Part shown: one piece after another, positions 7,785 to 28,453 of the stretch
Layout of the letters: each line of letters opens with the position of its first letter
Numbering within the stretch: the stretch's first letter is position 1
Made by a program: the position numbers and the translations under genes
DNA from: a virus
Direction: 5' to 3' (one strand)
Virus record (IMG/VR): IMGVR_UViG_3300032322_002561
Span: 124,001-188,000 of that record
DNA: 64,000 nucleotides
The notes under the pieces: model-generated
The model's database searches: none
Seen by the model: the letters and a program-made list of their open reading frames with translations, nothing else
What the model was told of the DNA's origin: nothing

Positions 7785-7899
7785 TTTCTTTTAACCTTTG
7801 ACGATAAATGTGCAAGGCCTCGGTGAGATTCGCAGCCTCTATAACTTCGACTCGTTTACTGCCGTCGGTATTGGTGTGGGTAAATGTATAAGTTTTCAT
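7777..7899 (-). CDS. Small conserved-looking protein, 40 residues
   Basis: An open frame (MKTYTFTHTNTDGSKR at the start, RQRLKESA at the end) fills the gap between two larger genes. Its ATG overlaps the stop of the 699-residue gene as ATGA and its stop lies inside the next GTG region, so the coupling is tight on both sides. No domain is recognised; mixed beta/alpha, charged. Confidence 0.6.
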   Translation of the reverse strand: MKTYTFTHTNTDGSKRVEVIEAANLTEALHIYRQRLKESA

Positions 7900-9995
7900 A
7901 GTGTCATGCTACGTGGTTGTCCAAACACACGAATGGCTGCTTGTAATTGACGACGAAATGGTTCACCACTGCGATCATATTCAATCATGAGCCAGTTGCC
8001 CAGGCGATCTTGCACAAGTCCATATTCTTGTGCGGTACGGGCACTGTCCACTGTGAAGTAGTGCAGACGTCGAGCTCGTGGTTTACCGGGTTGTTGTTCA
8101 CGTACCAATGTAAGTTTGGCCACTGCCTGTTGCACGTCTTGTGGAAGTTTTTGCAAGGGTATTGGTACTTGTGTATATTGTCCAGTGGCAGAGTCGGTGT
8201 GAACCAGGATCATGGTACCATTGGGTTTTTTGGTAAATCTATAACCCAGGCGTTGCATGTCATTGCGTAGATCGGGTATTAGGCCTTGGGGATCACCGCG
8301 CACAATAAGCGTGATCATGTTAAGGGCTTTTTGTATGGCTAGATCTTGTCCAGGCAATTTGGGTTGTGGTTCCATGGCTCCGGGCAATGGAACGATTTCC
8401 TCTTGTAGCATACTATACAATGCACGGAACACTGATTCTTTTGTACCTGTTTTCATAACTCTTGGATCCCATGGTGGTGTTTGACTTCTGGTAGGAAACT
8501 TTAAAACTGTTGCGTCTGTTGGTTGTGGTGTAGCAGGTGTTGTGGATTGCGGTATGTTGACCACGTTGCTGCCACCACGCAGCGGTAGCTCGGATTGTGT
8601 TGGTTGCGGCGTTATTGGTTCTGCAAACAGGTCGCCTTGTTCGGGGTCGGCAGTTAGATCTTTTGCCAGTTTGTCTAATGCCGGGGATCGTGTTGGTTCG
8701 GCCTTGACCTTGGGAGTTGGTTTACGTGCTTTGCGACGTTGGACTGGTTTTTCTTTACCGGTAGCAACTGCTGGTGTAGTGTCTGGTTCTGCTGGTGTGG
8801 CAGGTTTCTTTTTTGGCGCAGCTTTGGATCTCACAGCTGGCTTTTCATCAGACTTTGGTTTGGGAGTAGGCAATGCAGGCTTCTTACCAGCGGCAATGTC
8901 TGCGGCTGTGTCTTTGGTGTCTGTGGGAGTCATACCTTGATCTTTGGCCCAGGTATCAAGTTCTTGGAAACGTCGTTCTTTGTCTTGTAGATCAGCCACC
9001 AATTCGGCCTGTTGTTGACGCAGTTGGCGTTCTTGTGCCAAGAGATCTCGTATGTCTTCGCGATCCTGTGCCTGCGTTTTGCGATAGTCAAAAATCAAGG
9101 CTTCAAGGTCGCTTTGTGCTTCAGGATTTTCAGCTCGTAGTTGGCGCATGATTCTCTGCGTTCTAGGATTGTCAAAATCTGTTTCTCTTTTTTCAAGCAC
9201 CGTGCTCTTGCCTAACTGCACAGTGCGGTCAGGAGGCAAAGGCTTTTGGGGAGTGCGTAAGCGGTGCATGACAATGGTTTGTTCAATGCGTTTGGCCACG
9301 GCTTGGGCTGTATCTGCATCTTCTTGTTTGACAGCTTCTTGAAACTTTTCCAACAAGGGCTTGATTTCGGGATATATGTCATCAAAGCTGGTGATTTTAT
9401 TGGTCAAGGCCTTGACCACTTGATTGGTATTGTATATTTTCAAACGATTCCGAATGGTGTAATATGCACCCAGCGTAAATGCTGTGCCGCCCAAGATTGC
9501 AACAGCCAAGGCATCTCGTAAGGCATTGTCAAGAAAAGGATCTACTGCTTCCAGTGTTCGGGTGGGTGGTTTTATACGATCTATTCTTGGTGCAATGTTG
9601 GCTGTGACATCAGTAGCCGCCGGTGCTGTGCCGTATTTGGCTTGTTTTTTCTTTTCTTTGCTGAGTTTTTGTTGTGCGATCAAAGGAGCTAGCCTGCGAT
9701 CAAGATCGGCCAACTGTGCTCGCAGTTGTGGTAGTTGGCTTGGCTTGTATGGTATACCATAGATTTTGCTGGCCTGTTTGATAGCATCCTCGTAGTCCAA
9801 TACTATGCCTTCACGACCAGCATCTCGCATGGCCATGGCAGCTGCTTTGTACAGCAGTTGATTGGCAGTGATTTCTGGACCTACTTTGACTTCTTCCACA
9901 GGCACACAGTTGGGCACCTGACGATCGCCTTTTTTCTTCATGCCAGCTTGGCGGTAACCCTTCCAGCAACGTTCAGATAAATCTTGAAACTTCAT
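7896..9995 (-). CDS. Modular virion-like protein with Pro/Ala/Lys-rich linker and one membrane segment
   Basis: 699 residues. It begins MKFQDLSERCWKGYRQAGMK, a phage module with CWKGY and PNCVP cysteines. One hydrophobic segment (AVAILGGTAFTLGAYY, near residue 175) follows. A coiled-coil-like Gln/Glu/Arg stretch lies near 300-350, then a long disordered linker of Pro, Ala and Lys (about 370-510), then a folded C-terminal domain. This resembles multi-module head or ejection proteins. The start overlaps the stop of the DUF5872-like gene (ATGA). No enzymatic motif seen. Confidence 0.6.
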   Translation of the reverse strand: MKFQDLSERCWKGYRQAGMKKKGDRQVPNCVPVEEVKVGPEITANQLLYKAAAMAMRDAGREGIVLDYEDAIKQASKIYGIPYKPSQLPQLRAQLADLDRRLAPLIAQQKLSKEKKKQAKYGTAPAATDVTANIAPRIDRIKPPTRTLEAVDPFLDNALRDALAVAILGGTAFTLGAYYTIRNRLKIYNTNQVVKALTNKITSFDDIYPEIKPLLEKFQEAVKQEDADTAQAVAKRIEQTIVMHRLRTPQKPLPPDRTVQLGKSTVLEKRETDFDNPRTQRIMRQLRAENPEAQSDLEALIFDYRKTQAQDREDIRDLLAQERQLRQQQAELVADLQDKERRFQELDTWAKDQGMTPTDTKDTAADIAAGKKPALPTPKPKSDEKPAVRSKAAPKKKPATPAEPDTTPAVATGKEKPVQRRKARKPTPKVKAEPTRSPALDKLAKDLTADPEQGDLFAEPITPQPTQSELPLRGGSNVVNIPQSTTPATPQPTDATVLKFPTRSQTPPWDPRVMKTGTKESVFRALYSMLQEEIVPLPGAMEPQPKLPGQDLAIQKALNMITLIVRGDPQGLIPDLRNDMQRLGYRFTKKPNGTMILVHTDSATGQYTQVPIPLQKLPQDVQQAVAKLTLVREQQPGKPRARRLHYFTVDSARTAQEYGLVQDRLGNWLMIEYDRSGEPFRRQLQAAIRVFGQPRSMTL

Positions 9996-10828
9996 TTTTT
10001 CTTGTTGCCCCAGTTGGCGGCACCTTTCTTACGACATTGCACAAGGGCACCCGATGCATAAGCTGACGGCCAGACCTTGTAACGACTTTTTACTTTTTGA
10101 TAGCAGGCGTCTTGTTTTTCATCAACTTGATCTCGGTTGACATGTTTTTCTAAACGATCAATAGCACCCTTCATGTCTTCGCGACCTTGCCGGGCTGCGG
10201 CCTGACGCTTTGCTTCTATTTCGTCGTGTTTGCGTTCGCGTTCAGCGGCAGCACGTCTAAATTTTTCCAGTGCAGTTTGACCTTTGCCTTCATCCATGTC
10301 ACGCTGACGACGCTTGCCAAAGTATCGTTGTATGGCAGGATCATCACGATCCACTGCTACCAGGCGCTCGGGACTGATATACCAGCCTTTACCGTCACGA
10401 TCTAGTATGCGAACTCTACGCTCGCTGGGATCACCACTCATGCGGAACACTTCCCCATATTCGCCATCCTGACTGTCACGCACATAATCACCGTCTCGCA
10501 AGCGGCTATCTTCGTCATCATACCAGTCATCGTCGTCTGTGTATTGTTCTTTTACTTTGGTGGCCACATTTTTAGCGGCTCCTCTACGTTCTGGATCGGG
10601 ATCTTCTCTGCGCTTCTTGGCCGCAGCTGACGCACGACCTTTTTTGCCCAGGGCATGTGCCTTGCTCTGTGGCAGGCATTTTGGTTTGCCTTCTGATTCT
10701 GATCCTCGGGCACAACTGCCACGGATTTTACCATCGGGGCCAAAACGCACCCATTTTTCCTTGAACCACTTGCGTAGGTTTTCTTCAACGGGGTCAACAG
10801 TGTTTTCAAATAAATCAGTCAAAATCAT
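9992..10828 (-). CDS. DUF5872-like modular phage protein
   Basis: 278 residues, strongly charged. The N-terminal part has KWFKEKWVRFGPDGK then GSCARG, followed by Lys/Arg-rich GKKGRASAAAKKRRE. An acidic middle follows and the C-terminus has YKVWPSAYASGALVQCRKKG, a DUF5872-type module found in many T4-like phages. The first residues MILTDLFENT resemble the N-terminus of T4 Alt, which is a capsid-targeting leader. A late-type box (AATAAATA, 10847-10854) with an 18-base leader precedes it. Probably an internal or head-associated DNA-binding protein (inference). Confidence 0.65.
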   Translation of the reverse strand: MILTDLFENTVDPVEENLRKWFKEKWVRFGPDGKIRGSCARGSESEGKPKCLPQSKAHALGKKGRASAAAKKRREDPDPERRGAAKNVATKVKEQYTDDDDWYDDEDSRLRDGDYVRDSQDGEYGEVFRMSGDPSERRVRILDRDGKGWYISPERLVAVDRDDPAIQRYFGKRRQRDMDEGKGQTALEKFRRAAAERERKHDEIEAKRQAAARQGREDMKGAIDRLEKHVNRDQVDEKQDACYQKVKSRYKVWPSAYASGALVQCRKKGAANWGNKKK

Positions 10829-10846
10829 GGTTTTGTTCTCTCTGAA

Positions 10847-10854
10847 TATTTATT
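10847..10854 (-). promoter_or_regulatory. T4-late-type box AATAAATA
   Basis: Minus-strand AATAAATA 18 bases before the ATG at 10828; the leader contains AGAGAGAA as a weak RBS. Confidence 0.4.
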
Positions 10855-10859
10855 GCGTT

Positions 10860-11447
10860 TTAACGCCCAGTCCACTGTGCAATCATGCTGGCATCACCCG
10901 AATATATGCTGCGACCCGGTCTCAAGGCCTTTATGCTGCGGCGTCCCGACTGTATGGGGAAAGTGTATGTGATCGTGTTGCGAGTTTCATGCACTATTTC
11001 GTCACCGGGCTGGGGGTTGTAATCCTGTTGAGACTGTTTGGCGATTCCGCTCACTTCCACACCAGGTATGCGGTTTAACTTTAACCACATGGCCTGCCCA
11101 TGCTTGGTTTGTGTTTTGCCGGCTCTCAGCGTTAATTTTAATATGCTGAGTGCTATGCCATACAGGGCCAAGCCCAGACCCTGTCCACGATAGTCAGGAT
11201 CAGTAGCCACAGTTTCCACACGATAACTGTCTAGCATATCTCCTGTGGGTAGCACATCTAATTCAGCTACCAAACTGTTTTGATCAAAGATCATGATTTG
11301 TTTGAGATCGCCCTCGTGTTGTACGGCATAACTGTAGCCACTGCCGCCGGGCAAAGGTCGGGCACCACGAGGGGTCTGCATGGGTGCAAGAGTATCCTTG
11401 TCGCCAAAGTCACCCTGTGGTATACGAGCTATTTCCATGATTTTCAT
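10860..11447 (-). CDS. GNAT-family acetyltransferase
   Basis: 195 residues. VATDPDYRGQGLGLALYG (about residues 80-97) is the GNAT motif A acetyl-CoA pyrophosphate loop (RGQGLG). It is flanked by the expected strands. It likely transfers an acetyl group to an unknown amine. The N-terminus MKIMEIA fits the short leader seen on neighbouring modular proteins. The ATG overlaps the stop of the DUF6492-like gene upstream. Confidence 0.75.
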   Translation of the reverse strand: MKIMEIARIPQGDFGDKDTLAPMQTPRGARPLPGGSGYSYAVQHEGDLKQIMIFDQNSLVAELDVLPTGDMLDSYRVETVATDPDYRGQGLGLALYGIALSILKLTLRAGKTQTKHGQAMWLKLNRIPGVEVSGIAKQSQQDYNPQPGDEIVHETRNTITYTFPIQSGRRSIKALRPGRSIYSGDASMIAQWTGR

Positions 11448-12328
11448 GCTGGTTCCTGAACAGCCATAGACTGTAAACTCTGGCTGGCAATATTTACGTC
11501 AAATCCTTTGTTGACAAACCACTGTATCAATGTCAGACGTTGGTCATGGGATAAACTCTGCACCACATCTCTATGCACTGCCGATATCAAGTTTGTGGGC
11601 ACACTGTACCACTTGTCCAACATATTGTGCTCGATGTCTGCTTGGGTGATGTAGTATGTATCTGCCAACGACAAGTCTGATTTGGCTGTGATTTCAGCGG
11701 CAGTAATACAGTTATAAAAGTTGTGCGCAATCAAACTGTAAAAAATAAATTCAGATTCCCAATAATCAAACGGTTTTGATACTTCGTTGAAAAGATAGTC
11801 TATATCAAAACTCACACAGTGTTGAGCAATTACAGTGTTCATTACAAACGGAGTCAGGACTTCGTATGTGTGTGATGTAGAATTGAGACCAAGGATCTTG
11901 GCTACACTATCTAGCCAGGTTTGTCTGGGTCCAGTGGCACACACATCAGTTATGATGGGTCTGCCATTCAAGCAAGGCCAGTTTGACAATGATTGCTGAC
12001 GCCAGAAAAAATTCTTGCTGTCCAAGACCATGTAACGTTCATTTGAGATCAACTGTGATGCCATGAGTTTTAACAACTGTTGTCTACGATAACCGTGCCG
12101 ATCGGGTCGATGATAGTGTGTTTCTGGTAACAAAGTTGGAGACAGTTTTAATGTGTGTCGATGATAGAATGGAGTTAATTTTTCTCTCCAAATTTCTAAA
12201 TCACTTTGGTCCTGAACAATGATCCAGTGCGTGATAGGATTTGTAACAAAAAGATCAATACTGTGAGCTTGAAACAACAGTTGATTCAAGTCACTCAACT
12301 GTGATACAGTTACAACATCCTGAATCAT
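11444..12328 (-). CDS. DUF6492-like putative glycosyltransferase
   Basis: 294 residues. GYRRQQLLKLMASQL then YMVLDSKNFFWR repeats the core layout of the proteins at 1949 and 5213. Overlaps with both neighbours (ATGA) put it in the operon that contains GNAT and the giant fusion protein. Substrate unknown. Confidence 0.6.
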   Translation of the reverse strand: MIQDVVTVSQLSDLNQLLFQAHSIDLFVTNPITHWIIVQDQSDLEIWREKLTPFYHRHTLKLSPTLLPETHYHRPDRHGYRRQQLLKLMASQLISNERYMVLDSKNFFWRQQSLSNWPCLNGRPIITDVCATGPRQTWLDSVAKILGLNSTSHTYEVLTPFVMNTVIAQHCVSFDIDYLFNEVSKPFDYWESEFIFYSLIAHNFYNCITAAEITAKSDLSLADTYYITQADIEHNMLDKWYSVPTNLISAVHRDVVQSLSHDQRLTLIQWFVNKGFDVNIASQSLQSMAVQEPA

Positions 12329-12504
12329 GATTTGACTTCTCTCACGTTGCTGACTATACTGTCAACGCCATATTGTGCTCTAAGCAGGCGTTTGGCCAAT
12401 TCATAATTGCGAGCAACCACCTGTGTGTCAATCAAGGTGGCACTGTTTTTAAGTTTGACTCTTGCATGAAAAGTCTTGAGATTTTCCAATTCTTTGACTT
12501 TCAT
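12325..12504 (-). CDS. Small conserved phage protein, 59 residues
   Basis: I start it at the ATG at 12504, which overlaps the stop of the giant gene as ATGA and gives MKVKELENLKTFHARVK; an in-frame ATG at 12540 would add 12 residues lying wholly inside the upstream gene. The rest (VVARNYELAKRLLRAQYG) suggests a small alpha/beta fold. Function unknown. Confidence 0.65.
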   Translation of the reverse strand: MKVKELENLKTFHARVKLKNSATLIDTQVVARNYELAKRLLRAQYGVDSIVSNVREVKS

Positions 12505-15500
12505 TTCTTTTTGGATCTTCCTGACTTCATGTTGGCACACCAGTGATACATTTTGGCTTTCTCACCACTGGCATTTTTAGCTCGTTGACGTAGGCTTGTA
12601 ACTGAGCCATTGCAACTGGCCCCCGCACGTTTTACACGTCCAGGACGGCTCTTGCCTTTGACCTTGCCATCTGCAAAGTTTTCATTGACGTCATCACCTA
12701 GCTTGCGAGCCATTTGAATCTGCTGGGTCATGTTTTCTATGTCATGCTGATCAATGGCTTGCCCAATAGCGCTGCGAGATTTCAGCGAACGTACCACTGG
12801 CTCCACGGGTTCCACACGGTCCATGGATTTTTTCTTGATGACGGGTCTTGGTGGCACAGCACCTGCACCTGATACAGGATCTATGGCCTCGGCTACAATT
12901 CGGGTTCTAAGGAGTCCTGGTGGCATGCCCTCTTGTTCTTGTTGAGCTATCCAGGCACGCACTTCGTCAGCTGTGGCGTTACGCATGAAATGTATCACAC
13001 GGTCAGGATCATCATCCAGAACCAACTCGTAGTTCTGTCGCCGTGGCTCAAAGTTCTGTGCCACATCTGTGTTGACATCCTGCACACCCAGTCTGCGTTG
13101 TACGTCCACACTATCTCTTTGATCATCGGCGGCCTGCTGACCTTTTCTGTAGCCATAGTCAGCAGTGTCGTTGGGCAAGTCTTTCATCTTGAGCCACCGA
13201 TCAAACACACGACTGGCTTCCTGATCACTGTTGGCATGGAATCGGTCAACTACTCGCAAGTCTACAGTGCGTTGATCCACAATTTCATAGTTGTATTGAG
13301 TTGCTGTTGCGGGTTTCTTGACAATACGTTTGGCCACTTGTGCTCTGGGGCTGACTTTGGGCTCTGGCGTCTCATCAGGCCTGCGATATATGTTCCAGTC
13401 CAAGGACCGTTCTCCATATTCGTATTGGACCCGTTGCGTGGCTTTGTCAATGTCAGAAGCACGCATGGTCAGGAGCATTTTGCCCGTTGCATCAAACACA
13501 TCAAACCAGGGCTGTTTGATGCGCACATCAAGCTCATTAATGTCCCGACCGTATTGTCTCAAGAAAAGATCATAGGCTGAGTCATAGTCTTTAGCATACA
13601 GTGTGCCAACGATTCCGTCAGGGCTGTCTTTGTTGTCTCTGCGATAGACTTCGTATTCGTCTTTGCCTGTGCCAGGCAACTCTTTCTGTAGCACAGTATC
13701 AGCCCATTGTTTCTTTAACTGTTCTTTGTTGATGGTACCTGCTGAAAACTCCGAGAACAAGCGAAGTTGGTCCGCATATTGTTCGTTGTCTTGGGTAACC
13801 AACTTGTATAGTTTCTTGGCATACTCCTGGCGTTCGGCACTGGGATCACCGGCTATGGCCATGGCTCGGGCAAAACGCAACATGGTATTTTCTAATATGC
13901 CGATTTCTTCATCGCCTTTGGCCAACCAGTCGCCTCCGGGGCTACGGAATTCCACATAGCCATCTTGTAAATGTGCTGACGTATACTTGCTGGTGCCCAC
14001 ACCTTTTTGCAGTTCTCGGTAGGCCAACTCAGTGAGTCCATGACGCAACAATTCTACCACACCGGCTGGATCACTGCGTCCACCTTTGATGTTTTGTTTT
14101 AACTTGTCCAAGGCCGACGCACAATAGGTGTTAGCTGTACGACCAAACTGCTGTTGCACATACTTGTCGCCCATGAACAGGATCAACTTTACATAGTCTA
14201 TACCGACACTATCGTTGGCGTCTTCAGATTTGATCCGAGGCAAGCTCACGCCCATGTGCAGGCCTGTGGAACTATTGGTATAGGCGTTGCCACCGTTGGG
14301 ATCATTGGCCCAGTCTACCACTGCCTTTAATTTTTCTATGGCCATCAGCAAGGGCATGGGTGGGCTGACTATTTCAAGACCCATTTCTTCACTCTTGTCA
14401 TCGGGATCCAGGCTGCCATCGGGTTCTATGATCCAGGTGCCTTCTCTGCGTGCGGCACTGTGATAATTGGTGCTGACTTTGACAGGCATGTCCACTGCAT
14501 CTTGCAAGCTACTACCAATGTCGTCCCAATCACGGCTACCATTGTTGCTCTGGGCATCCATGTTCCACACAGGCCAGTCCAAGTTGTATTCGTTGGCAAT
14601 GTCACTCATCCAACGCAGTCCGACATCTGAAAAGAAGCTGTCACTGTCAGGACTATAGCTGTCACGGAAATCGTCCAGGGCCTGATCATAATAGCCGTCT
14701 TGTTTACGTATGCTGGTTTCTACTTCTTCGTCTAGGATGGCGTCGGCATCATCCACGGCTTCCATGTAAGTCCTGTAGTCAGGATTCTGTTCAGCAAAAG
14801 CTTCTTGTTCAGCTGAGGTCGTAAATTTGGGTGCGTCTGAACCCAGTCTAAATATCTTTTCGGCTTGATCGTCAGTGAGTTCCATGCCATCTGTTAGCAC
14901 GGCCAGTATACGCTCGCCCATGGGCACTTCGTCGAGATGCTGTTCACGCACTAGGTCTTCGGCTTCGTTGCCAAAATCTTCACGCACCCGCTCATCGTAC
15001 CAGTTCATGTAGGTTTCGTCTAAGTCGTTTTCCAGTCTGCTGACTCCGCGATCACTGAGTCCAAACCCATATTCATCGTTACTGAAAAACTCTATAACCT
15101 GCTGTATGCTGTAGGCACGCTCGTCGTAGTCGTAGTCGGGCTCAGGATCCATCTCATCACTTTCACCCTGTGTGTCACGGAATATGAGTTCAGCTTCAAA
15201 ACCAGCACGTATGCCCTTGGCTGCATCCGACGTGGCAAACTTTTCCAAGGCCGTGGGACTCATTTTGACTTCGTCAAGATCATCTTCATCTAGTTGTTTA
15301 CCTTGTGCTCGCGCTATGGCATCTTGCCCGGCAACAAAATCTTTTGCCGCAATGCCTTGGCCGGCTGACTGGCGTTGTTTGAGTCCTGGCAATAGTGGCA
15401 AGCCTTTTTTCTCGTGCGACTTCAGTTGTGCTTGCAATCGTTGTTGTAGAGCTGGTGTATCATAGAACAGGGCATCCACAGCATCTAGGATATAGACCCA

Positions 15501-17867
15501 GGGTGCGGCACTGTCGCTTTGTATGCTACGAGTGTCACCGGTCTGTAGATCCTGGATGTCCATGCTGTCTATGGCCAGTGGTCCAGCTACACCAGATCTG
15601 ATCATGTCTACTGGGCGCACCACAAAGTTGGCTGACTCACGACTGCGACGGTTTGTTAGCCGTACTTCATAGGTGGTGGGATTAATTTCGTCTACCAGTT
15701 CAGCACGCCATCCGTGTTGTGTTTCAGACTCGCCTTGTGCTGACTCGTCTACATGCCCATTCATGCCAAACTGATTGGCTGGAGCACGTTGATTGCGTGG
15801 GTCAATGTATTCATAGGGGTCGTCTTTGAACTGTGCCAGCTCTTGAGCCAGGCGTTCTTCCAGGGTGCTTTCGCGCAGGTTCACAGTTTTCATCAACAAG
15901 CCAGGTCGTCCTTGGCTGTCAGTTTTGAGTGCCATTTTGTTGGCTTGTCGACCAACTTCACCAGGCCGTATGTCTTGAGTCAAGGCCATGCTGTAGCGTG
16001 GATCTTTAGCCTGCTTTTTTGTGGGAATATATCCACTGGCATTCTCAGCCATTTTCCGTCTCATCTGTTGTGCCAGCTCATAATTTTGTAAAAATTCTAG
16101 TTCATTACGAGTCATTGGTTTATTGGCTACTTTTTTTGCTCTCAAAAATCGATAGTAGTCGTCTTTGTCTTTTTGACTTTGGTTGACGGCTATTTTTAGT
16201 TCTTCGTTTTGTTGGAACTGTTTGTCAAATTCTGCTTTTTTACGATAATATTCTTTTTTGTAGGCTTCAAAGTCAGCGGCCGCCTGTTCGGCACTTTGTG
16301 GTGGCACACGCGGTGCTGGTGGCAAAGTGCCCTGACGTTTTTGCATGCGATACAGCCAACTTTGATTTTGTGCATTGGCATCACCGCCCAGGGCGCGACT
16401 GTAGTTTATGATCTCTTGACGGAGATCTTCCTGAGCACCAGTCCAACCCATGCGTTTGAGTGTCTGTGCTGTGCGTGCCGCATCTACTGCACCACCAAGA
16501 GCTTGTCCTATTGTGCGATCTTGTGCTTGTGCACCACCGGCAGCCAGTGCAGCGGTCAAGGCACCGGCAGCCAACTTGCTTTTGATACCTTCGTCAACAC
16601 TTTCTTTTTCAAAGTATTCAGGGTAGGCATCGGTAAAGTCACGCATGATGATGCCGGCCACAGCATGTGCTTCGTTTTCCCAGTCACTGCCGGTTTCCCC
16701 GGCATCTGCAGGCAAGGGTTCAATTTCATGCTGGCGGCAGTGTGCCAGTTCATGTGCCGTGGTGCGCATGATGTCCAAGATATGTCGATTGGGCAGGCTC
16801 ACGTGCAAGGTATGTGTTTCAGGGTCAAATCTACCAAAGCTGGTGTTGCCTTCACTCCAGGCAGCATCAGAATGCAATTCTATCACAGGCAGTTTTTCAA
16901 TGCCCAGACGCTTGGCCACATAACGAACAAACCGTGATATGATTTTTTTGGTCAGTGGTGTTTCACTGAGAAACATTCTAGTTGATGGGCTGACCCCGTC
17001 CGGAGTAGAAGCTTCACGTATGTCCTGGCTCTCGCCACCACCGTCCCCTCCACCACCTTCTGAGCCGGCAGCATGATCTTGCCCAGCATAGCCAAAACCT
17101 GGATACCAGTAACCACCAAATGCACCGTAGCGAAACTTTTTCTTTTTGGCTTTCTTTCGGCGTTCGTTTAAGCTGAGTTCGCGATCCTTGAGTTCGTTGC
17201 GACGATCAAACAGGCGTTGGATATAGCTCTGACTGCGCAACATCTTGTAGGCCAAGTTTTCTGGACCAAATTCTCCGTTGGTTTCCAGTCCGGCCTTGCG
17301 CATCTGTTTGACTTTTTCTATGGTGGCTGTGACCTGTTCAAGGCTGTCACTCTCAATGGCCTGTTCAACTCTAGCACCAATGTCTTCGTACTTGTGTTGC
17401 ACGCTCATGTCGTCAATCTTGGCACGACGTCTTTTTGGCACTGAGATCCAGTCATCATTGAGCACGCTGTAGATGCCCTGACTCACGTGTGGTTGATCGG
17501 CATCTTGCACATACAGTTCCACATCATAGCCACCTATGCGAATGTCATGTTCATCGTTGTATTGATATTTTTTGGCATCAAACAGCTCGCGATAGACTTC
17601 GTCTTCGGGAACCTGCACCACTAGATGTAGATCAATGTCACTGTGTGGAGCATAACTGTAGGCGGCATTGCTGCCGCTGAGCGTGATGTCTTGGATTTGC
17701 AGATCGCTTACGCCAAGAAATTCTTGGAAATCTGCCGCAATTGCCAACAGTTTTTCACGCACTTCAGGAAGCAGTTTTTCGTCACTGCCAAAAATCCGTG
17801 GATTTAAGTTGTCGTGAAACTTTACAGCATCAGCAAGATTATAGGTCTGCAGCTCATGGATGTTCAT
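12501..17867 (-). CDS. Giant multidomain protein: nucleotidyltransferase, zinc metallopeptidase-like and amidoligase-like domains
   Basis: 1788 residues. Order: a Pol-beta-type nucleotidyltransferase (GSNAAY at 65-70, SDIDLH at 76-81 with the paired aspartates); a Lys-rich hinge and FGGYWYPGFGYAG; Gly-rich linker; a zincin-like domain with HELAH (372-376) and downstream ENEAHA as possible third ligand; long helical and linker parts containing ASGYIPTKKQAKDPR, a module known from T4-like phages; an amidoligase-like region (GFEAEL 889-894, EPDGSL near 1150, EIVSPP 1165-1170, GLHMGVSL 1202-1209); and a basic Cys-bearing tail (GRVKRAGASC, YHWCANMK). It begins MNIHELQ. Such fusions occur in phage head regions; packaging and cleavage are inferred. 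Enzymatic activity of each domain is unproven. Confidence 0.7.
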   Translation of the reverse strand: MNIHELQTYNLADAVKFHDNLNPRIFGSDEKLLPEVREKLLAIAADFQEFLGVSDLQIQDITLSGSNAAYSYAPHSDIDLHLVVQVPEDEVYRELFDAKKYQYNDEHDIRIGGYDVELYVQDADQPHVSQGIYSVLNDDWISVPKRRRAKIDDMSVQHKYEDIGARVEQAIESDSLEQVTATIEKVKQMRKAGLETNGEFGPENLAYKMLRSQSYIQRLFDRRNELKDRELSLNERRKKAKKKKFRYGAFGGYWYPGFGYAGQDHAAGSEGGGGDGGGESQDIREASTPDGVSPSTRMFLSETPLTKKIISRFVRYVAKRLGIEKLPVIELHSDAAWSEGNTSFGRFDPETHTLHVSLPNRHILDIMRTTAHELAHCRQHEIEPLPADAGETGSDWENEAHAVAGIIMRDFTDAYPEYFEKESVDEGIKSKLAAGALTAALAAGGAQAQDRTIGQALGGAVDAARTAQTLKRMGWTGAQEDLRQEIINYSRALGGDANAQNQSWLYRMQKRQGTLPPAPRVPPQSAEQAAADFEAYKKEYYRKKAEFDKQFQQNEELKIAVNQSQKDKDDYYRFLRAKKVANKPMTRNELEFLQNYELAQQMRRKMAENASGYIPTKKQAKDPRYSMALTQDIRPGEVGRQANKMALKTDSQGRPGLLMKTVNLRESTLEERLAQELAQFKDDPYEYIDPRNQRAPANQFGMNGHVDESAQGESETQHGWRAELVDEINPTTYEVRLTNRRSRESANFVVRPVDMIRSGVAGPLAIDSMDIQDLQTGDTRSIQSDSAAPWVYILDAVDALFYDTPALQQRLQAQLKSHEKKGLPLLPGLKQRQSAGQGIAAKDFVAGQDAIARAQGKQLDEDDLDEVKMSPTALEKFATSDAAKGIRAGFEAELIFRDTQGESDEMDPEPDYDYDERAYSIQQVIEFFSNDEYGFGLSDRGVSRLENDLDETYMNWYDERVREDFGNEAEDLVREQHLDEVPMGERILAVLTDGMELTDDQAEKIFRLGSDAPKFTTSAEQEAFAEQNPDYRTYMEAVDDADAILDEEVETSIRKQDGYYDQALDDFRDSYSPDSDSFFSDVGLRWMSDIANEYNLDWPVWNMDAQSNNGSRDWDDIGSSLQDAVDMPVKVSTNYHSAARREGTWIIEPDGSLDPDDKSEEMGLEIVSPPMPLLMAIEKLKAVVDWANDPNGGNAYTNSSTGLHMGVSLPRIKSEDANDSVGIDYVKLILFMGDKYVQQQFGRTANTYCASALDKLKQNIKGGRSDPAGVVELLRHGLTELAYRELQKGVGTSKYTSAHLQDGYVEFRSPGGDWLAKGDEEIGILENTMLRFARAMAIAGDPSAERQEYAKKLYKLVTQDNEQYADQLRLFSEFSAGTINKEQLKKQWADTVLQKELPGTGKDEYEVYRRDNKDSPDGIVGTLYAKDYDSAYDLFLRQYGRDINELDVRIKQPWFDVFDATGKMLLTMRASDIDKATQRVQYEYGERSLDWNIYRRPDETPEPKVSPRAQVAKRIVKKPATATQYNYEIVDQRTVDLRVVDRFHANSDQEASRVFDRWLKMKDLPNDTADYGYRKGQQAADDQRDSVDVQRRLGVQDVNTDVAQNFEPRRQNYELVLDDDPDRVIHFMRNATADEVRAWIAQQEQEGMPPGLLRTRIVAEAIDPVSGAGAVPPRPVIKKKSMDRVEPVEPVVRSLKSRSAIGQAIDQHDIENMTQQIQMARKLGDDVNENFADGKVKGKSRPGRVKRAGASCNGSVTSLRQRAKNASGEKAKMYHWCANMKSGRSKKK

Positions 17868-17873
17868 AAGCTG

Positions 17874-18799: not shown

Positions 18800-19798
18800 T
18801 TATTTTTTACGACCAGCGCAGTGCGCTTTTTGGCTAAAGCCCCTGGGGTTGTTGCAGTTGATTGAACGCTTGTATTTGGCAGACCACTTTTCGTCTATGT
18901 AGTCATCGCTCTCATTGTATGTGGCGGCCCAGCCTTGATTTTCGTCCATTTCTTTTTGTTTTTTAGCCACGTAATTTGTGATACGGCTCTTGGTCACACT
19001 GTGCTGTGCTTTTGTGGGATTGGCATAATTGCCTGGTTTGGAGTAAACCAGCTTATCGCCGCGATATATTTCTACTCGATCAGGATGATATTTGATAGTG
19101 TACCCTTGATACGCAAAAGATTTCACATCGTAGGTAGAAGTTGACACTGGTCGAGTCATGGTTTTTTTCTGTTTGGCCACTGCTTCGGGATTGGAGGGGA
19201 ATGATTCTTCCATGCCCAATATAGCAGTGTCTAGTAACTTTACTACATTTTGTGCCAATGCAGGATTCTTTTGTGTGATGGGGTACAGGCTCATGACAAG
19301 AGCCTGTTTGCGTCGGTCATTTAATCGAGGCCATGCCGCACGTATTTCTGTAGCCGAAGTCATACCAGGACCAAATTCCACAGTGGGCAAATAGGCCATA
19401 TAAGCATGTTGAGCAAATGGTGCTAGATCCTGTTGTCCTTTGTAGGGCTGTAGATAACTGGGCGATCCATCTTTTTTGACGCCACCTGCTTGTGGCGGTT
19501 TGTCAGCATCTTTTTCACTGCGCACAAAGATCAACTGATCGGTTTCAGGGTCAAATCCAGCAGTGATTTCCTTGGCTTGGAACGGGCTTTTGACTTGTAC
19601 AAAATGGCCGGGTTCAACACCGGCCAACTTGGCCAGCTTTTCTTTTACAGCAAATGGAAAAGGTCGTGCTGACGTATCATTTGTGGCTGCCACAAACACT
19701 TCAGCATTGGGGAACGCTTTGCGTGCAGAGTTATACAGGGCATAATGACCTGCATGAAAAGGATGGAACCCACCGGGCATAACGACAATTTGCTTCAT
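18800..19798 (-). CDS. HxGH nucleotidyltransferase with phage C-terminal module
   Basis: 332 residues. GGFHPFHAGH (residues 9-18) is the HxGH nucleotide-binding signature of cytidylyl/adenylyltransferases, and MTSATEIR serves as the second signature (STxxR-like). The C-terminus ends INCNNPRGFSQKAHCAGRKK, a basic two-Cys module that I recognise as appended to unrelated T4-like phage proteins. It may transfer NMP to a lipid, sugar or cofactor precursor. A box GATAAATA lies six bases before ATG. Confidence 0.75.
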   Translation of the reverse strand: MKQIVVMPGGFHPFHAGHYALYNSARKAFPNAEVFVAATNDTSARPFPFAVKEKLAKLAGVEPGHFVQVKSPFQAKEITAGFDPETDQLIFVRSEKDADKPPQAGGVKKDGSPSYLQPYKGQQDLAPFAQHAYMAYLPTVEFGPGMTSATEIRAAWPRLNDRRKQALVMSLYPITQKNPALAQNVVKLLDTAILGMEESFPSNPEAVAKQKKTMTRPVSTSTYDVKSFAYQGYTIKYHPDRVEIYRGDKLVYSKPGNYANPTKAQHSVTKSRITNYVAKKQKEMDENQGWAATYNESDDYIDEKWSAKYKRSINCNNPRGFSQKAHCAGRKK

Positions 19799-20352: not shown

Positions 20353-20359
20353 AGTGACT

Positions 20360-20367
20360 TATTTATA
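20360..20367 (-). promoter_or_regulatory. T4-late-type box TATAAATA
   Basis: Perfect consensus on the minus strand, seven bases before ATG 20352. Confidence 0.6.
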
Positions 20368-23315: not shown

Positions 23316-23337
23316 GGATGTCAGTTAGTTTGTGTTT

Positions 23338-23366
23338 AGTATATAGCAGGCCAAAGGTTTTGTCAA
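23338..23366 (-). promoter_or_regulatory. Sigma70-type promoter for clpA
   Basis: Minus-strand TTGACA (23361-23366), 17-base spacer, TATACT (23338-23343), 22 bases before ATG 23315; it overlaps the stop of the DnaJ-like gene. Confidence 0.7.
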
Positions 23367-24136
23367 ACTCTATGCTTTTTTATTGCGGCAATTATTTCTG
23401 GAGCAATCTGGGATGGCAAATAGGTACCAAGCCTCACAAACACGTCGCCTTGATTATTGTTGCGATCTCGCAGACCTTGACCACGCAAACGCAACAATGT
23501 GCCGGGTTGAGTTCCTGCTGGAATAGCGGCCGACAACGAGGCATTGGTTATACTGGTAAGATTCAAGGAGCCGCCCAAGATCAAGTCCCACACTGGAACC
23601 TTTTGATCAATTATGAGATTGAGACCGTGTCGTTCCCACTGCTGATGTGGATGCACTCTGAATTGTACTACCAAATCAGATCCACCAGGACCAATTCCAG
23701 CATATTGAACGTTGTCACCGTCATTGATGCCCACGGGTATATCTATAGACACTGTGCTGGTGCCAGACGTGGTGCCAAGATTGACAGTTCTTGAGCCGCC
23801 CAGGGCCACATCATTCAGAGTTATCCATAGTGTCAATCTAACATGACCTGGACCTCTGCGTGACTGATGATGGAAATTTTGTCCAAACATGCTGAACAAA
23901 TCGTTGAAGTCAAACCCAGCATTGCCAAATCCTGCAAAATTGGTTTGTGGATTATCGTAACCAGATCGTCGTTGCGGGTCACTCAAGACATCGTAGGCTT
24001 CTTGAATTTCTTGAAATTGTTTGGTATCACCACCTCGGTCCGGATGGTGTTGTGCAGCCAAACGCCGATAAGCACGTTTTATGTCATCGGCATTGGCTGT
24101 ACGATCTACGCCTAAAGTTTGATAGTAATTTTTCAT
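23363..24136 (-). CDS. DnaJ-like cochaperone (zinc-finger-less, CbpA type)
   Basis: 257 residues. The J-domain (residues 1-70) has YYQTLGVDRTANADDIK and the obligatory HPDRGG. A short linker with Phe/Gly (FDFNDLFSMFG) is followed by two substrate-binding beta domains (DIPVGINDGD, GDVFVRLGTY). The CxxCxGxG zinc repeats of DnaJ are absent, so it is a class B/CbpA-like protein that would stimulate host DnaK. Adjacent to clpA, suggesting a shared role in protein quality control or virion assembly. Confidence 0.9.
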   Translation of the reverse strand: MKNYYQTLGVDRTANADDIKRAYRRLAAQHHPDRGGDTKQFQEIQEAYDVLSDPQRRSGYDNPQTNFAGFGNAGFDFNDLFSMFGQNFHHQSRRGPGHVRLTLWITLNDVALGGSRTVNLGTTSGTSTVSIDIPVGINDGDNVQYAGIGPGGSDLVVQFRVHPHQQWERHGLNLIIDQKVPVWDLILGGSLNLTSITNASLSAAIPAGTQPGTLLRLRGQGLRDRNNNQGDVFVRLGTYLPSQIAPEIIAAIKKHRV

Positions 24137-24184
24137 TGCTTCACAAGTAATTATACAACTTATACTTGGTGAGAGCGATATTTT

Positions 24185-24370
24185 TTATTTCTTTTTGTCA
24201 GGAACCGGAGTACCTTCAAGTTTTTTATGAACCTTGATGTCTTTGCACACTTCTTTTTTGGTTTTTTCATCCTTTTTGCAAACACGTTTGGTCTCACCAG
24301 CGGCATTGGCCACGGTAATAAAACTCACAGCTATAACTGTGGCCCAACAAATTTTTACGATTGCGTTCAT
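24185..24370 (-). CDS. Small exported protein, 61 residues
   Basis: A signal peptide (MNAIVKICWATVIAVSFITVANA) ends at ANA before a Lys/Asp-rich mature part with two cysteines (RVCKKDEKTKKEVC). RBS AAGGAAAC precedes the ATG. Probably periplasmic; function unknown. It is next to the holin-like gene. Confidence 0.65.
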   Translation of the reverse strand: MNAIVKICWATVIAVSFITVANAAGETKRVCKKDEKTKKEVCKDIKVHKKLEGTPVPDKKK

Positions 24371-24382
24371 GATTGTTTCCTT

Positions 24383-24844
24383 TTAGATTTCAGGGTGTGG
24401 CGGCTGTTGTGGAGCCGCAAAGGGTGAAGGCTTTGGTGCCGGTGCGGCAAAGGCGGGTGCTGTACTCATGCTATTGCCACCTAATGGTACTGAGCCAAAA
24501 CTGGGTGCAGGAGCCGCCACCGGTGCGCCAAATGCAGGCGCAGGACCACCGGCCTTGTCATTTAGCTTTTCTTGTGTGCGACCATATGCGGCAATACCCA
24601 ATATGGCACCCATGGCGATGTGGAACAGGCCAGCACCTTGAAGTGTGATAGGCATCCACTGACTTTCTACTTTGCCATCACCCAAGGTCTGGACCAGGCT
24701 CCATAATATAGGAAATATCACAAAGTCCATGGTACACACCAACATGTACATCCAACCCATGGCTGGACGCCATTTTTTGTTCATCCAATCTTCTTTGGCT
24801 TTGTCTGAATCAGACATTTTTGCATACTCTTCGGCTGTGGCCAT
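24383..24844 (-). CDS. Holin-like membrane protein with Ala/Pro-rich tail
   Basis: 153 residues. Two hydrophobic segments (MYMLVCTMDFVIFPILW; GAGLFHIAMGAILGIAAYG) follow a charged N-terminus with KKWRPAMGW, a pattern I associate with phage three-TM-type holins. A disordered Ala/Pro-rich C-terminus follows. A strong RBS (AAGGAGCAACAA) and a promoter TTGGTT-16-TATAAT precede it. Function as a holin is inferred; the 112-residue gene at 30144 is an alternative. Confidence 0.6.
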   Translation of the reverse strand: MATAEEYAKMSDSDKAKEDWMNKKWRPAMGWMYMLVCTMDFVIFPILWSLVQTLGDGKVESQWMPITLQGAGLFHIAMGAILGIAAYGRTQEKLNDKAGGPAPAFGAPVAAPAPSFGSVPLGGNSMSTAPAFAAPAPKPSPFAAPQQPPHPEI

Positions 24845-24880
24845 TTGTTGCTCCTTTTATAATTTTTATTATGTGCTACT

Positions 24881-24908
24881 ATTATACTGCACTGGCTATA
24901 GCAACCAA
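24881..24908 (-). promoter_or_regulatory. Sigma70-like promoter for the holin-like gene
   Basis: Minus-strand TTGGTT (24903-24908), 16-base spacer, TATAAT (24881-24886), inside the 3' end of the upstream gene. Confidence 0.55.
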
Positions 24909-25142
24909 GGCAGTTATAGCTGTATTTAACCTTTGCTTGGTTTCAAATTCGGACATGTTTTCTGTGATAGTGATCTGACGCTGTAGATCTAATAAGAGTT
25001 CTGCGTATTCTGCTTGACTGATGTTGCCGGCACGCAGTTCTTCGCCATAGGCCGCTGTGGCCGTGGCTACCATACGAGTATTTTCATCGTCGGGATTGTT
25101 CAAGATATGTAGCACTTCCGTTTCCCATTGTTGCCAAGTCAT
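24882..25142 (-). CDS. Small helical phage protein, 86 residues
   Basis: I start it at the ATG at 25142 (MTWQQWETEVLHIL), which has an ideal RBS (AAGGAGAACACA); an in-frame upstream ATG at 25355 would cover part of the GNAT gene and is rejected. The protein is mostly helical (TATAAYGEELRAGNIS; LLLDLQRQITI). Function unknown. Confidence 0.65.
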   Translation of the reverse strand: MTWQQWETEVLHILNNPDDENTRMVATATAAYGEELRAGNISQAEYAELLLDLQRQITITENMSEFETKQRLNTAITALVAIASAV

Positions 25143-25152
25143 TGTGTTCTCC

Positions 25153-26028
25153 TTATTCAGTGGGTTGTGGTCGTAACAAACGACTCCAGCGTTGTAACCA
25201 GCTGGGTTCTTTTTTGATCTCGGGTTCTGGTCGCTTTTCGGGCTCGGGCGGAGGCTTGGGCATGTCTTTGAATTCCGTCTCGCGACCTTGACCAGCACCA
25301 CCCTTCCAAAAAGCCTGACCCATGGCTGTTTGTGCTGTGCCTGGCACGATGTCATTGCCTAATTTTCTGGCAAAGTTATACATGGCCGATGCTAACCCTT
25401 GTCTTCTGTAGCGTTCATCAACATTTAGCATGACTGGCCTTAAATTCCAGTCATTGGTTTCTTTGTTGAATCGAGCATAGAAGCGCACTTCGGCTATGCC
25501 ATAGCGTTGGGCCATCCAGTTTTTGTCAGCAGGATCAAATATTCTTATACTGATACCGCGGCTGTCTCGCATGGCTGGATCTGGGTCATTCTTCCAGGGT
25601 TCCATGCCTGTGGCACGAATTGTGAATCCATTGGGCAGTTGACGCTCTATTTCAAAGCCATCTTTAACTGTGTCAGGATTGATTTTTTCTTGTAGATATT
25701 CATTGTCTTCCCATACCGTGGCTTCTGCGCCGCGATGTTTATCCCAAAAGCTCCGACCAGCGTCAGTCTGATCCCAACTGCGGACGATGGTATAGCCTTG
25801 GCTTTTTAAATAATCATACATGGCGGCCGCAATGCCTTGACCGTGATAGCGTTCATCTACCCATACCGTTTGTGGATCTAATCTACCTTCATCATCGTAG
25901 AAAAATTCTGCCATGCCCAATTCTCTGGCACCATCTGCACCATAGGCTCGTATGGCCACACCATCCGCATCCTTGCTTATTTTAAGGCTCATGCCTTCAT
26001 AATCTTTCACAAACTCTTGGGCTCTCAT
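25153..26028 (-). CDS. Tandem GNAT-like acetyltransferase protein
   Basis: 291 residues with two copies of a GNAT-like half: WVDERYHGQGIAAAMYDYL and LNVDERYRRQGLASAMYNF, each with RxxGxA-type acetyl-CoA loop and each followed by a GxxFW element. A Pro/Glu/Lys-rich tail ends in SWLQRWSRLLR. The start MRAQEFVKDYEG matches the leader of the next two genes and resembles T4 internal-protein leaders. ATGA-coupled to the gene upstream. Substrate unknown. Confidence 0.65.
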   Translation of the reverse strand: MRAQEFVKDYEGMSLKISKDADGVAIRAYGADGARELGMAEFFYDDEGRLDPQTVWVDERYHGQGIAAAMYDYLKSQGYTIVRSWDQTDAGRSFWDKHRGAEATVWEDNEYLQEKINPDTVKDGFEIERQLPNGFTIRATGMEPWKNDPDPAMRDSRGISIRIFDPADKNWMAQRYGIAEVRFYARFNKETNDWNLRPVMLNVDERYRRQGLASAMYNFARKLGNDIVPGTAQTAMGQAFWKGGAGQGRETEFKDMPKPPPEPEKRPEPEIKKEPSWLQRWSRLLRPQPTE

Positions 26029-27869
26029 AGGCTGTAGGGATCCACTATAACAAGATGACCGTTGTTGCGTCGGCCAAGATTTTCCACTGCTGATAAATCC
26101 AGGGGTGCCTGCCCACCCAGAGCTTGGATCATGTGTTCGGTGGCCTGCAACAAGCCTGCCAGTTGTTGTTGTCCAATTTCATCGGGCACAGGATTCTGTT
26201 TCACAAACTCTGGACCCTGACCTCGATCCACGGCACTCATTAGTTTTTCAATGTAGTCCAAGGTAGCTTCTTCGTTGGCCACGTAGTTCACACGTTCCAT
26301 TTCATACACAAAGTAGGTTTCACCGTCCACTGTGAAGTTGCCTGAGTTGTAGATCCTGGGATAGAAAGGATTGCGTTGATTTTGCTCAAAGAAACGCACA
26401 TAGTTTTTTACAATCTGTTCACGTTCTGGATCACCAGTGCCTAGCACTTTGACTATGGTACCTCGCGGACTTTCAAACGCCATCTGGTCGCGTCCTTCAC
26501 CAGCTAACTCATAGCCACGCTGGAAAAAATATTCTTGTATTCTATCACTGACAGTGAGTTCGTCAGGATAGTTGACTTCATTTACCTGTGCCACGGGTCT
26601 CCAGGCCTGGATATAGTCACGATTCAATAGATACTTTGCGGCCCAAGCACGATGATTGCCATCTATGATGTAGCGATCAGCATCTATTACAATGGGTTTC
26701 CGGTCTACCAAGTGAGCACTGACTTCGCCAGCATGGCCAGGTTCTACCATCATTACTCTGCCGTAGGGATCACTTTCAGGTTCGTCGTCATCGTAGTCCA
26801 CGTCATCGTATTCTTGATCAGGTATGTTAAGGTTAAGTAGTGGAACTTGAACCAGTTCCCACTGTGGGTGTGCTAACACAGCTCGGGCTAACTTGTCTGT
26901 CATGGGTTCGTGATGTGTCTTGTTTATGTAAGCCAGGACTTGTTTCGCTGTGGCTTGCTGTGCTTCTTGAATAGGTTGCCGTTTTCTAAATATGCTGTAT
27001 AGAATAGGAAAATCTTCGTCGCCTACCATGTCCTGTACCAAGGGTCGGGCACCACCTTCACGCTGGATAAAATCCTGATACACCTGTTGATACACAGCTT
27101 CAGGATCTCTGCGATAGTCTGCACTGCTTTTACAGTCGCTGGTGAATCCTTCAAAGTGTATGCGATAGGCTCCTATGTCTTCCACACCACAGTCGTCAGG
27201 ATTTAGGCTGTCTAGGAACTGTTCTATGGCTCTAGGTATGCGTGCTTCTTTGAGATTTTGTTGTCGATCCAGGTAGTACAAATTCCAGCCAGGAGGATGT
27301 TCAGTCGATGCCCGCCATTCTGGGCCCAGGACACGCTGTAGCAAAGGCAGTAATCGGTCATAGAGTTTCGCACGGCTGGTGTCAGTGCCTATGGACTTGT
27401 ACCAAACTCGCTTGGGTTTGTAATAAGCCACTGCTTCGGGCAATCTAGCAAGTATCACATTGATAGCAGACATCAAGGTCTGGGTACTGCCTGGTTTGCC
27501 CTTGTCTTTTTCCAATGCAAATCCACGACCGTCCACACTGAAGTTTATTTCTAATCCCTTGGCGGTATTTTTAAAAAACACTTCTAGGTTGTGTTCACCA
27601 GCCTTGGTCTTAAATCTACTACGACTCTGGTGTGCGGCAGGTTCACTTTTTACTGGGCGATCAAATATTTCTTCTAGATTTTTAAAATCGCGAATCCAGG
27701 TCCATCTTGTGTCGGCGTCAATCCATTTCACACCCATGCTATTACGTTTATGCGGTTCGGTATCTATCAGCCAGTCACCCTTTTCGTCTCTGCGGAGGAT
27801 TCTTACCACCTGGCCTGTGCGTTCTAATTTACCCATGCGAAATGGTGCGGCAAATTCTTCAGCTCTCAT
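26025..27869 (-). CDS. Modular protein with ParB/sulfiredoxin-like and kinase-like parts
   Basis: 614 residues. The central segment PIVIDADRYIIDGNHRAWAA (about 390-410) is the ParB/sulfiredoxin-type motif (D/EGNHR). The C-terminal part has GTIVKVLGTGDPER, then YFVYEMERV, then GHLVIVDPYSL at the extreme end, reminiscent of the beta-Lys, hinge and metal-binding elements of a protein-kinase fold. An acidic linker separates them. It begins MRAEEFAAPF. ATGA overlaps on both sides. Activities are unproven. Confidence 0.55.
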   Translation of the reverse strand: MRAEEFAAPFRMGKLERTGQVVRILRRDEKGDWLIDTEPHKRNSMGVKWIDADTRWTWIRDFKNLEEIFDRPVKSEPAAHQSRSRFKTKAGEHNLEVFFKNTAKGLEINFSVDGRGFALEKDKGKPGSTQTLMSAINVILARLPEAVAYYKPKRVWYKSIGTDTSRAKLYDRLLPLLQRVLGPEWRASTEHPPGWNLYYLDRQQNLKEARIPRAIEQFLDSLNPDDCGVEDIGAYRIHFEGFTSDCKSSADYRRDPEAVYQQVYQDFIQREGGARPLVQDMVGDEDFPILYSIFRKRQPIQEAQQATAKQVLAYINKTHHEPMTDKLARAVLAHPQWELVQVPLLNLNIPDQEYDDVDYDDDEPESDPYGRVMMVEPGHAGEVSAHLVDRKPIVIDADRYIIDGNHRAWAAKYLLNRDYIQAWRPVAQVNEVNYPDELTVSDRIQEYFFQRGYELAGEGRDQMAFESPRGTIVKVLGTGDPEREQIVKNYVRFFEQNQRNPFYPRIYNSGNFTVDGETYFVYEMERVNYVANEEATLDYIEKLMSAVDRGQGPEFVKQNPVPDEIGQQQLAGLLQATEHMIQALGGQAPLDLSAVENLGRRNNGHLVIVDPYSL

Positions 27870-28453
27870 GTTCTATGATACTCCGACGCTTGGCCATTGG
27901 GATCCACATGCCAGGCATAGAATCGGCTCCAAGGATATTCTTGTTTGAGGCTTAGGAACGCATTCAAGTTGGGCACTGAATCATCGTACATGATCAGCTT
28001 GTCAAAGTGTTCCTTGCCCAACAAGTGCCGTAGTATGATCTTTTTCTTTTCTTCTGTGGCGGCCTTGATGGCCAGGTTGCCAGCACGATACACATGTACT
28101 TTGTCCATGTTGATACCAAAGCGTCTAAAGGTATCTAGGAATATGTCTCGATCGTTGAAGTCCGATCTGGCAGTGAGCATGATCACTCGATTGCCCGTGG
28201 CTATGTCGTGCTTGAGTTGTTTGATCATGCCAGGTATGGGTCGTGCCTTGGTAAAAAACTCTCGGGCATCTTGAAACTCACCAAAGTCAAATGTTTCACC
28301 GGGTTGTAGTCGGTAGTGTGTGAAGTCGTGACTGTTTAATTTTTTGACAATTTTCCCATCACGAACTACACCTACCTGGGTGTCGGTGTTGACCAAGGTA
28401 TCGTCAATGTCAAATATGACTAGTTTTTCGTTTCCAAGTTCGCTGGCTCTCAT
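27866..28453 (-). CDS. HAD-superfamily phosphatase
   Basis: 195 residues. IFDIDDTLV (residues 13-21) is HAD motif I (nucleophile Asp15, acid/base Asp17), MLTARSDFN motif II, and YDDSVPN motif IV. An insert between motifs I and II forms a small cap. It resembles 5'-nucleotidase/polynucleotide phosphatase relatives. N-terminus MRASELGNEK shares the leader motif. A late-type box (CGTAAATA, 28459-28466) lies five bases before ATG. Confidence 0.8.
   Translation of the reverse strand: MRASELGNEKLVIFDIDDTLVNTDTQVGVVRDGKIVKKLNSHDFTHYRLQPGETFDFGEFQDAREFFTKARPIPGMIKQLKHDIATGNRVIMLTARSDFNDRDIFLDTFRRFGINMDKVHVYRAGNLAIKAATEEKKKIILRHLLGKEHFDKLIMYDDSVPNLNAFLSLKQEYPWSRFYAWHVDPNGQASEYHRT

Follow-up and report, generated by a model that had tools for sequence, protein, structure and literature searches.

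The internal proteins Ip1–3 of phage T4 have only their leader in common, and are injected anti-defence proteins used against host restriction (PMC12373910). Within the T4 leader, residues 4 and 7 mainly govern targeting and residues 8 and 10 govern processing; an Asp at position 10 blocks cutting with targeting kept, and the gp21 protease cuts behind L/I-x-E (PMC9026906). In the deposited T4 genome, ipII and ipIII both begin MKTYQEFIAE, and ipI begins MKTFKEF. For cyanophage S-CREM2, a virion proteome of 52 proteins has been obtained by mass spectrometry (PMC10665884). Herein we describe a region in which, with a probability of roughly 0.8, a T4-superfamily jumbo phage has a locus for capsid cargo, with targeting leaders and with polyproteins that the prohead protease would cut.

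The window, i.e. the whole stretch of 64,000 nt that was analysed, comprises bases 124001–188000 of a virus contig of 236,309 bp. This contig encodes T4-type replication and tail genes; it is incomplete and lacks head genes, carrying neither gp23 nor a prohead protease. Both PF03420 Peptidase_S77 (the T4-type prohead protease) and PF07068 Gp23 are encoded by five relatives of 316–352 kb, in which the head genes follow the T4 order of portal, two core-like proteins, S77 protease, gp22-like protein and gp23. The T4 replication and tail genes of the contig, together with S77 and gp23 in the five relatives, place it in a T4-superfamily jumbo phage whose genome it covers incompletely. The gp23 propeptides of the relatives end YLRE/N, YLKE/N or QLLAE/S (a slash marks the cut or candidate cut throughout), compared with FLTE/A in T4. 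A DNA-level search for the cluster among annotated phages returned no matches.

Several further features of these genomes were observed. The head clusters of G1, G2, G3, G5 and G6 harbour a 72–74-aa core-like protein between portal and S77 protease, which starts MILNEIYE, MKLFEMFD or MNLFEFFH and in this way resembles the cargo leaders. Several Sec-signal proteins of the relatives (L126–L211) resemble Bug/TctC binding proteins and Burkholderiales porins, a similarity that suggests Burkholderiales as their host. Within the window, an ORF at 28865–30142 (minus strand) resembles isocitrate lyase, and the contig also encodes ClpB/ClpA-like, DnaJ-like and DnaK-like proteins, as well as many radical-SAM-like genes.

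The predicted cargo genes of the window, along with a cytidylyltransferase-like gene and one module considered separately, are as follows:

27866..28453, minus strand: HAD-superfamily phosphatase-like cargo, 195 aa; the leader MRASELGNE is followed immediately by the HAD beta-strand KLVIFDIDDTL
26025..27869, minus strand: 614-aa protein predicted to be a capsid-targeted polyprotein, with the leader MRAEEF and modules at residues 1-208, 209-302, 303-431 and 432-614
26028..26576, minus strand: kinase-like module, 183 aa, C-terminal in the 614-aa protein (AlphaFold pLDDT 80.9)
25153..26028, minus strand: double GNAT acetyltransferase-like cargo, leader MRAQEFVKD (PF13508, 4.9e-9, two stretches)
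18800..19798, minus strand: cytidylyltransferase-like protein without leader (PF01467, 1.1e-4), with a C-terminal basic Cys module
12501..17867, minus strand: 1788-aa multidomain protein, MNIHEL start, modules assigned by Pfam and homology
12325..12504, minus strand: small cargo candidate, 59 aa from its ATG, start MKVKEL; orthologues start MKAREI, MRYNEI and MRLREFVTE
10860..11447, minus strand: GNAT-like protein, start MKIMEI (weak PF00583, about 0.002-0.003)
9992..10828, minus strand: basic modular protein, leader MILTDLFE, with two modules behind candidate cut motifs
7896..9995, minus strand: 699-aa basic protein whose leader MKFQDLSE leads straight into a CWKGYRQAGMKKKG module, assigned by leader and module sharing
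7215..7784, minus strand: 189-aa protein, a further cargo candidate; its leader MRDLINLIEA is nearly the same in a non-homologous protein

The seven ORFs singled out in a preliminary description of this DNA do begin as quoted there, all on the minus strand (MKFQDL, MILTDL, MKIMEI, MNIHEL, MRAQEF, MRAEEF and MRASEL). Further leader-like starts are present in the window (MRDLINLIEA and MKVKEL) and beyond it, at contig positions 122376-122660 (MLLSELFETTG), 123784-123972 (MKIREIMESTG) and 201572-203158 (MRDLLNQLDN). Gene starts are our own calls, and motif choices were partly tuned after the data were seen; on this basis, 21 of the 292 contig genes have an M-x-x-x-[ED]-[FLI] start, where internal Met contexts predict 8.2 (P = 1e-4). 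The cargo region holds 11 of these amongst its 27 genes, versus 10 of 265 elsewhere on the contig, with a Fisher value of 1e-7 that is post hoc because the region was picked by the motif. None of the 292 contig proteins has the T4-type motif in full, M[KR]x(2-5)[FYIL][ILVM]xE, as against 42 proteins in the five relatives; the leaders of the window thus count as relaxed forms, which retain the front part, often without the [ILV]xE end. T4 IPI (MKTFKEFTSTTT..ITE) likewise has no immediate [ILV]xE end.

An LxE-type site just behind the leader, earlier proposed as something to look for, is present in only part of the set. The L/I-x-E motif stands at the leader end in MKFQDLSE, MILTDLFE and MRDLINLIE, with LGNE in its place in MRASELGNE, but it was not found in four of the seven leaders. 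For two of these, MRAEEF and MRAQEF, it is the usual site that is missing; the GNAT leader MRAQEFVKD displays Asp where Glu is usual, and its relatives start MRAQEFVRD, MRAQEFVQD and MRAREFLLE. The other two, MKIMEI and MNIHEL, are weak leaders that offer no candidate, and their orthologues show no cut site close to the start. Two other candidate properties were rejected, namely a basic isoelectric point common to the cargo (several cargo proteins have a pI of 4.7-5.4) and the T4 late promoter TATAAATA ahead of the cargo genes, for which there was no clear association.

With regard to the domains behind these starts, the earlier GNAT, HAD phosphatase and amidoligase assignments are borne out by Pfam, and the nucleotidyltransferase match is weak (0.016). 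The 195-aa HAD protein matches PF03767 (2.5e-5), and its homologues keep the leader class (MRAQELGSG, MRAQEFANS). No Pfam match, and hence no Pfam peptidase, was obtained for the 614-aa protein, previously called ParB/kinase-like, but its last 183 residues are kinase/APH-like by fold search, matching protein-kinase/APH-like structures (E = 4e-5, TM about 0.5) with GAK, AAK1 and aminoglycoside phosphotransferase as the best PDB matches. The 1788-aa protein consists of a nucleotidyltransferase-like region (residues 1-235), an HExxH-containing stretch, an amidoligase (PF12224, 1.1e-7; Pfam 1120-1261) and a basic tail (1730-1788). Of the metallopeptidase proposed for it, the HExxH motif is visible (HELAH), but no peptidase family is matched in Pfam. 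Overall, Pfam accounts for few of the cargo modules.

Sharing of N-termini was assessed using a model-free test, in which families were formed from the proteins of six genomes by homology from residue 15 on, and N-terminal 10-mers were then compared across these families; this, together with a T4-anchored motif, replaced the first broad regular expressions, which gave weaker signals. At least 6 of 9 identical N-terminal residues are shared by 148 pairs from non-homologous families (6.0e-5), against 6 pairs (3.2e-6) for internal-Met controls, a difference of about 19 times, and at 7 of 9 identities there are 36 cross-family pairs against none. The largest N-terminus-sharing groups are Sec signal peptides (18 families), followed by MRAxEF[IV]xE (8 families), which is, by its sequence, the T4 IPII/IPIII leader MKTYQEFIAE in slightly shorter form. 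In its strict form, the T4-anchored motif is carried by 32 proteins from 12 families across the six genomes, none of them on this contig, compared with 1.2 expected.

The computation also reveals that the leader is exchanged independently of domains. Elsewhere, the kinase-like module stands alone or behind varied domains, and its complete homologues nearly all start with a leader (e.g. MRAREFFAE, MRSQEFISE, MRAQEFIAE, MRACEFLVE), whilst the MRAxEF part is absent wherever a module sits inside a larger protein. The leader stays N-terminal while the domains behind it get exchanged. The CWKGYRQAGMKKKG module of the 699-aa protein is found in other phages behind MRLTDFITE, MRYQEILE and MRFQEIQE; a leader near-identical to that of the 189-aa candidate, MRNLINLIEAV (G1_105), heads a non-homologous 523-aa protein; and orthologues of the MKIMEI protein start MRFFEI or MRFYEI, with that in G2_211 fused behind a HAD protein.

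Leader-tagged cargo of the relatives also includes a sigma-70 region 4 protein, a GH19 enzyme and a Tat-signal protein. In the last of these (L186:2570-2968, plus strand), the leader MRAQELLVE is followed at once by the Tat signal ITRRDFLRGAG (Pfam TAT_signal, 1.1e-6), and the protein may possibly be loaded into the head and cleaved, enter the host by injection and end up, by export, in its periplasm. The sigma-70 region 4 protein (L073:11517-12206, plus strand; 1.6e-10) bears MRAKEFVTE and is a possible head-packaged transcription factor. Two neighbouring leader-tagged proteins (L152:14866-16604, plus strand) have no Pfam match and contain FHYTG and IYHSV stretches, which we take to be reminiscent of ADP-ribosyltransferases, like T4 Alt.

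A second property of the cargo, not anticipated in the preliminary description, is the presence of predicted prohead-protease sites at module junctions. Those assigned in the window are listed below:

27246..27248, minus strand: predicted site NLKE/ARIP, Glu208 of the 614-aa protein (junction test)
26964..26966, minus strand: predicted site PIQE/AQQA, Glu302 of the 614-aa protein (junction test)
26577..26579, minus strand: predicted site QVNE/VNYP, Glu431 of the 614-aa protein (junction test)
18890-18892 (Glu codon), minus strand: junction YIDE/KWSAKYKRSINC, before the basic Cys module of the cytidylyltransferase (junction test)
15270..15287, minus strand: paired candidate sites QLDE/DDLDE/VKMSP (Glu861, Glu866), before the amidoligase module of the 1788-aa protein (alignment to the leader-tagged G6 amidoligase)
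12681..12683, minus strand: predicted site DVNE/NFADGKVKGKSR, Glu1729, before the basic C-terminal module of the 1788-aa protein (junction test)

In the junction test, the body of a leader-tagged protein was matched inside a larger protein, and residues were read where the leader Glu would fall, a position outside the query. In loci chosen partly because they encode these modules, 28 module families contribute 156 distinct junctions, of which 90 have [LIVMF]xE in precisely this position, against 3.2 expected; neighbouring offsets give 1-17 junctions, and control junctions, from proteins without leaders, 15 of 453 (3 %). At least one supported internal site is present in 163 proteins of the sampled loci. 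The amidoligase junctions scored 0 of 11 at the exact position; they have a second L-x-E a few residues beyond it, which was counted as a non-hit.

Several window junctions can be compared directly with stand-alone modules. Homologues of the last three modules of the 614-aa protein, L021_3 (MRAQEFLQE), L020_10 (MKIKELLVE) and L023_16 (MRAREFFAE), align exactly behind L/I/V-x-E within it. The basic tail of the 1788-aa protein (DVNE/NFAD in short form) stands alone in L030_9, which starts MRAHEFVTE/NFADG, and its family displays the motif in 10 of 11 distinct junctions; the amidoligase of the same protein stands alone in G6_198 with the leader MRALDFILE. Similarly, the basic Cys tail of the cytidylyltransferase (YIDE/KWSA) stands alone in G3_242 as MKASEFVSE/KWSRKYKRSINC. 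In the 9992..10828 protein, a module KWFKEKWVRFGPDGK lies behind VEE16 (codon 10781-10783) and occurs alone with the leader MRASEFISE, and the C-terminal module begins at residue 238, behind QVDE.

L/I-x-E is short and common, and its retention at junctions is alone no proof of cleavage. It may be, although we consider it unlikely, that the targeting leaders are real and that the internal motifs were left behind when genes fused, with the multidomain proteins being packaged and injected whole. The N4 virion RNA polymerase is packaged and injected whole. Polyvalent proteins can likewise be packaged unprocessed (PMC5512222), and the fusing of leader-tagged genes would leave a leader end at the junction. 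Fusion relics should, however, decay evenly, whereas the P1 Glu is identical in 64 % of junctions and a hydrophobic P3 is kept in 71 %, against 1-14 % for other leader positions; this retention of P1 and P3 with loss of the remaining leader points to selection on a protease site. We regard it as reasonably probable that capsid maturation itself frees individual effectors inside the head before injection, the modules being parted by prohead-protease sites.

Evidence from virions is provided by S-CREM2, with motif forms that were tuned after the data were seen. All five non-structural proteins with the T4-anchored motif were detected in the virion (Fisher 4.4e-5), as were all four with its strict form (3.5e-4); the bearers are gp6 (SAM hydrolase, MKDFDSFLEE), gp13, gp14 (APH-like kinase, MKRFDAFLTE), gp17 and gp154 (cytidylyltransferase, MKNFSSFLTE). 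Looser motifs also match undetected proteins, with 6 of 10 and 6 of 11 virion-detected (P = 1.5e-3 for the latter). As to whether the leader is as common in non-virion proteins, a question raised by the earlier reading, the T4-anchored motif is not equally frequent in S-CREM2 proteins absent from the virion. Two proteins detected in the virion (PMC10665884 Table 3) also match the window itself: gp156 resembles the nucleotidyltransferase module of the 1788-aa protein (E = 5e-36), and gp160 resembles residues 238-278 of the 9992..10828 protein with 83 % identity (E = 8e-19), exactly the stretch behind QVDE. Separately, the Cas9-annotated virion protein gp12 (L212:7704-10313, minus strand) contains RFASFMAEA at a distance of about 18 residues from the annotated start, in the manner of a leader that has been displaced.

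Virion mass spectrometry is silent on head versus tail, and S-CREM2 virions hold many tail proteins of unknown function, so that the cargo could in principle be tail or neck components whose leader docks to another assembly intermediate; we judge this very improbable, as the leader equals that of T4 internal proteins and its cut motif equals the gp23 propeptide motif of the same phages. Least credible is that the common starts reflect chance, or a preference in translation initiation, amongst ordinary cytosolic enzymes of infection, since the relaxed form of the contig leaders and their occurrence in 10 of 265 genes elsewhere are set against the excess of cross-family sharing over controls, the 32 strict matches, the keeping of the leader through domain exchange and the virion detection in S-CREM2.

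The capsid-packaging reading first put forward from the starts alone is supported by S77 and gp23 in the relatives, by a leader common to non-homologous families, by domain exchange and by the S-CREM2 virion proteins. Under it, each cargo gene would start with a capsid-targeting leader, M-[K/R]-x-x-[E/D]-[F/L/I], continued in its complete form by [I/V/L]-x-E. By analogy with T4, this leader would bind the cargo to the prohead core and be removed behind L/I-x-E by the S77 (gp21-type) prohead protease. Several cargo proteins would be polyproteins with the protease motif between enzyme modules, to be split into separate effectors during head maturation, and these effectors (HAD phosphatase, GNAT, kinase-like, nucleotidyltransferase, amidoligase and basic Cys modules) would reach the host along with the DNA. 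What we infer are the binding to the core, the cleavage, the injection and the host targets.

Of the proteins that large phages inject at the very start of infection, few are known. A leader that can be read off the sequence, and that was checked against one published virion proteome, would make the cargo of the T4 superfamily predictable; the sampled loci alone hold 177 leader-tagged candidates in 48 clusters, most of them without a Pfam family amongst those scanned. Such a leader could further be of use in packaging selected proteins in T4-like heads. Cutting at the junction sites, if it takes place, would make the protease of head maturation a polyprotein processor as well, one that yields many co-delivered effectors, and the arrangement would be a phage counterpart of eukaryotic viral polyproteins, using the head protease.

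In the largely open-access literature searched, no report was found of the leader in this phage group, or of prohead-protease sites between effector modules. S-CREM2 virions similarly contain a SAM hydrolase, an APH/ChoK-like kinase and a cytidylyltransferase with T4-type leaders, although the phage is smaller, its host is cyanobacterial and the leader goes unmentioned in the report (PMC10665884). Polyvalent proteins are also multidomain effectors thought to enter with DNA, and are likened by their authors to viral polyproteins (PMC5512222); the 1788-aa and four-module 614-aa proteins each combine several unrelated effector domains in one polypeptide, as polyvalent proteins do. Release of polyvalent proteins is, however, ascribed to embedded peptidase domains (PMC5512222), whereas the intermodule sites described here fit the capsid-maturation protease, and the modules also occur alone with a T4-type leader. 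The ejection proteins of SPN3US and phiKZ are inner head proteins with propeptides cut behind Glu by the prohead protease, but several of these propeptides are longer than 100 residues and their protease has diverged (PMC5694885), in contrast to the short T4-type leaders and Pfam S77 seen here. The closest likeness in leader form is to IPI, IPII, IPIII and Alt of T4, which also carry a short N-terminal M-K/R...EF leader on otherwise unrelated proteins (PMC9026906; PMC12373910), with a cut site at E (in the window at the end of only some leaders), an S77 prohead protease (here encoded by the relatives) and tandem genes. Unlike the T4 internal proteins, the present cargo consists largely of enzymes and of multi-module proteins reaching 1788 aa, many leaders on this contig have no immediate cut site, the commonest leader is of 9 residues (MRAxEFhxE), and cut motifs are present between modules.
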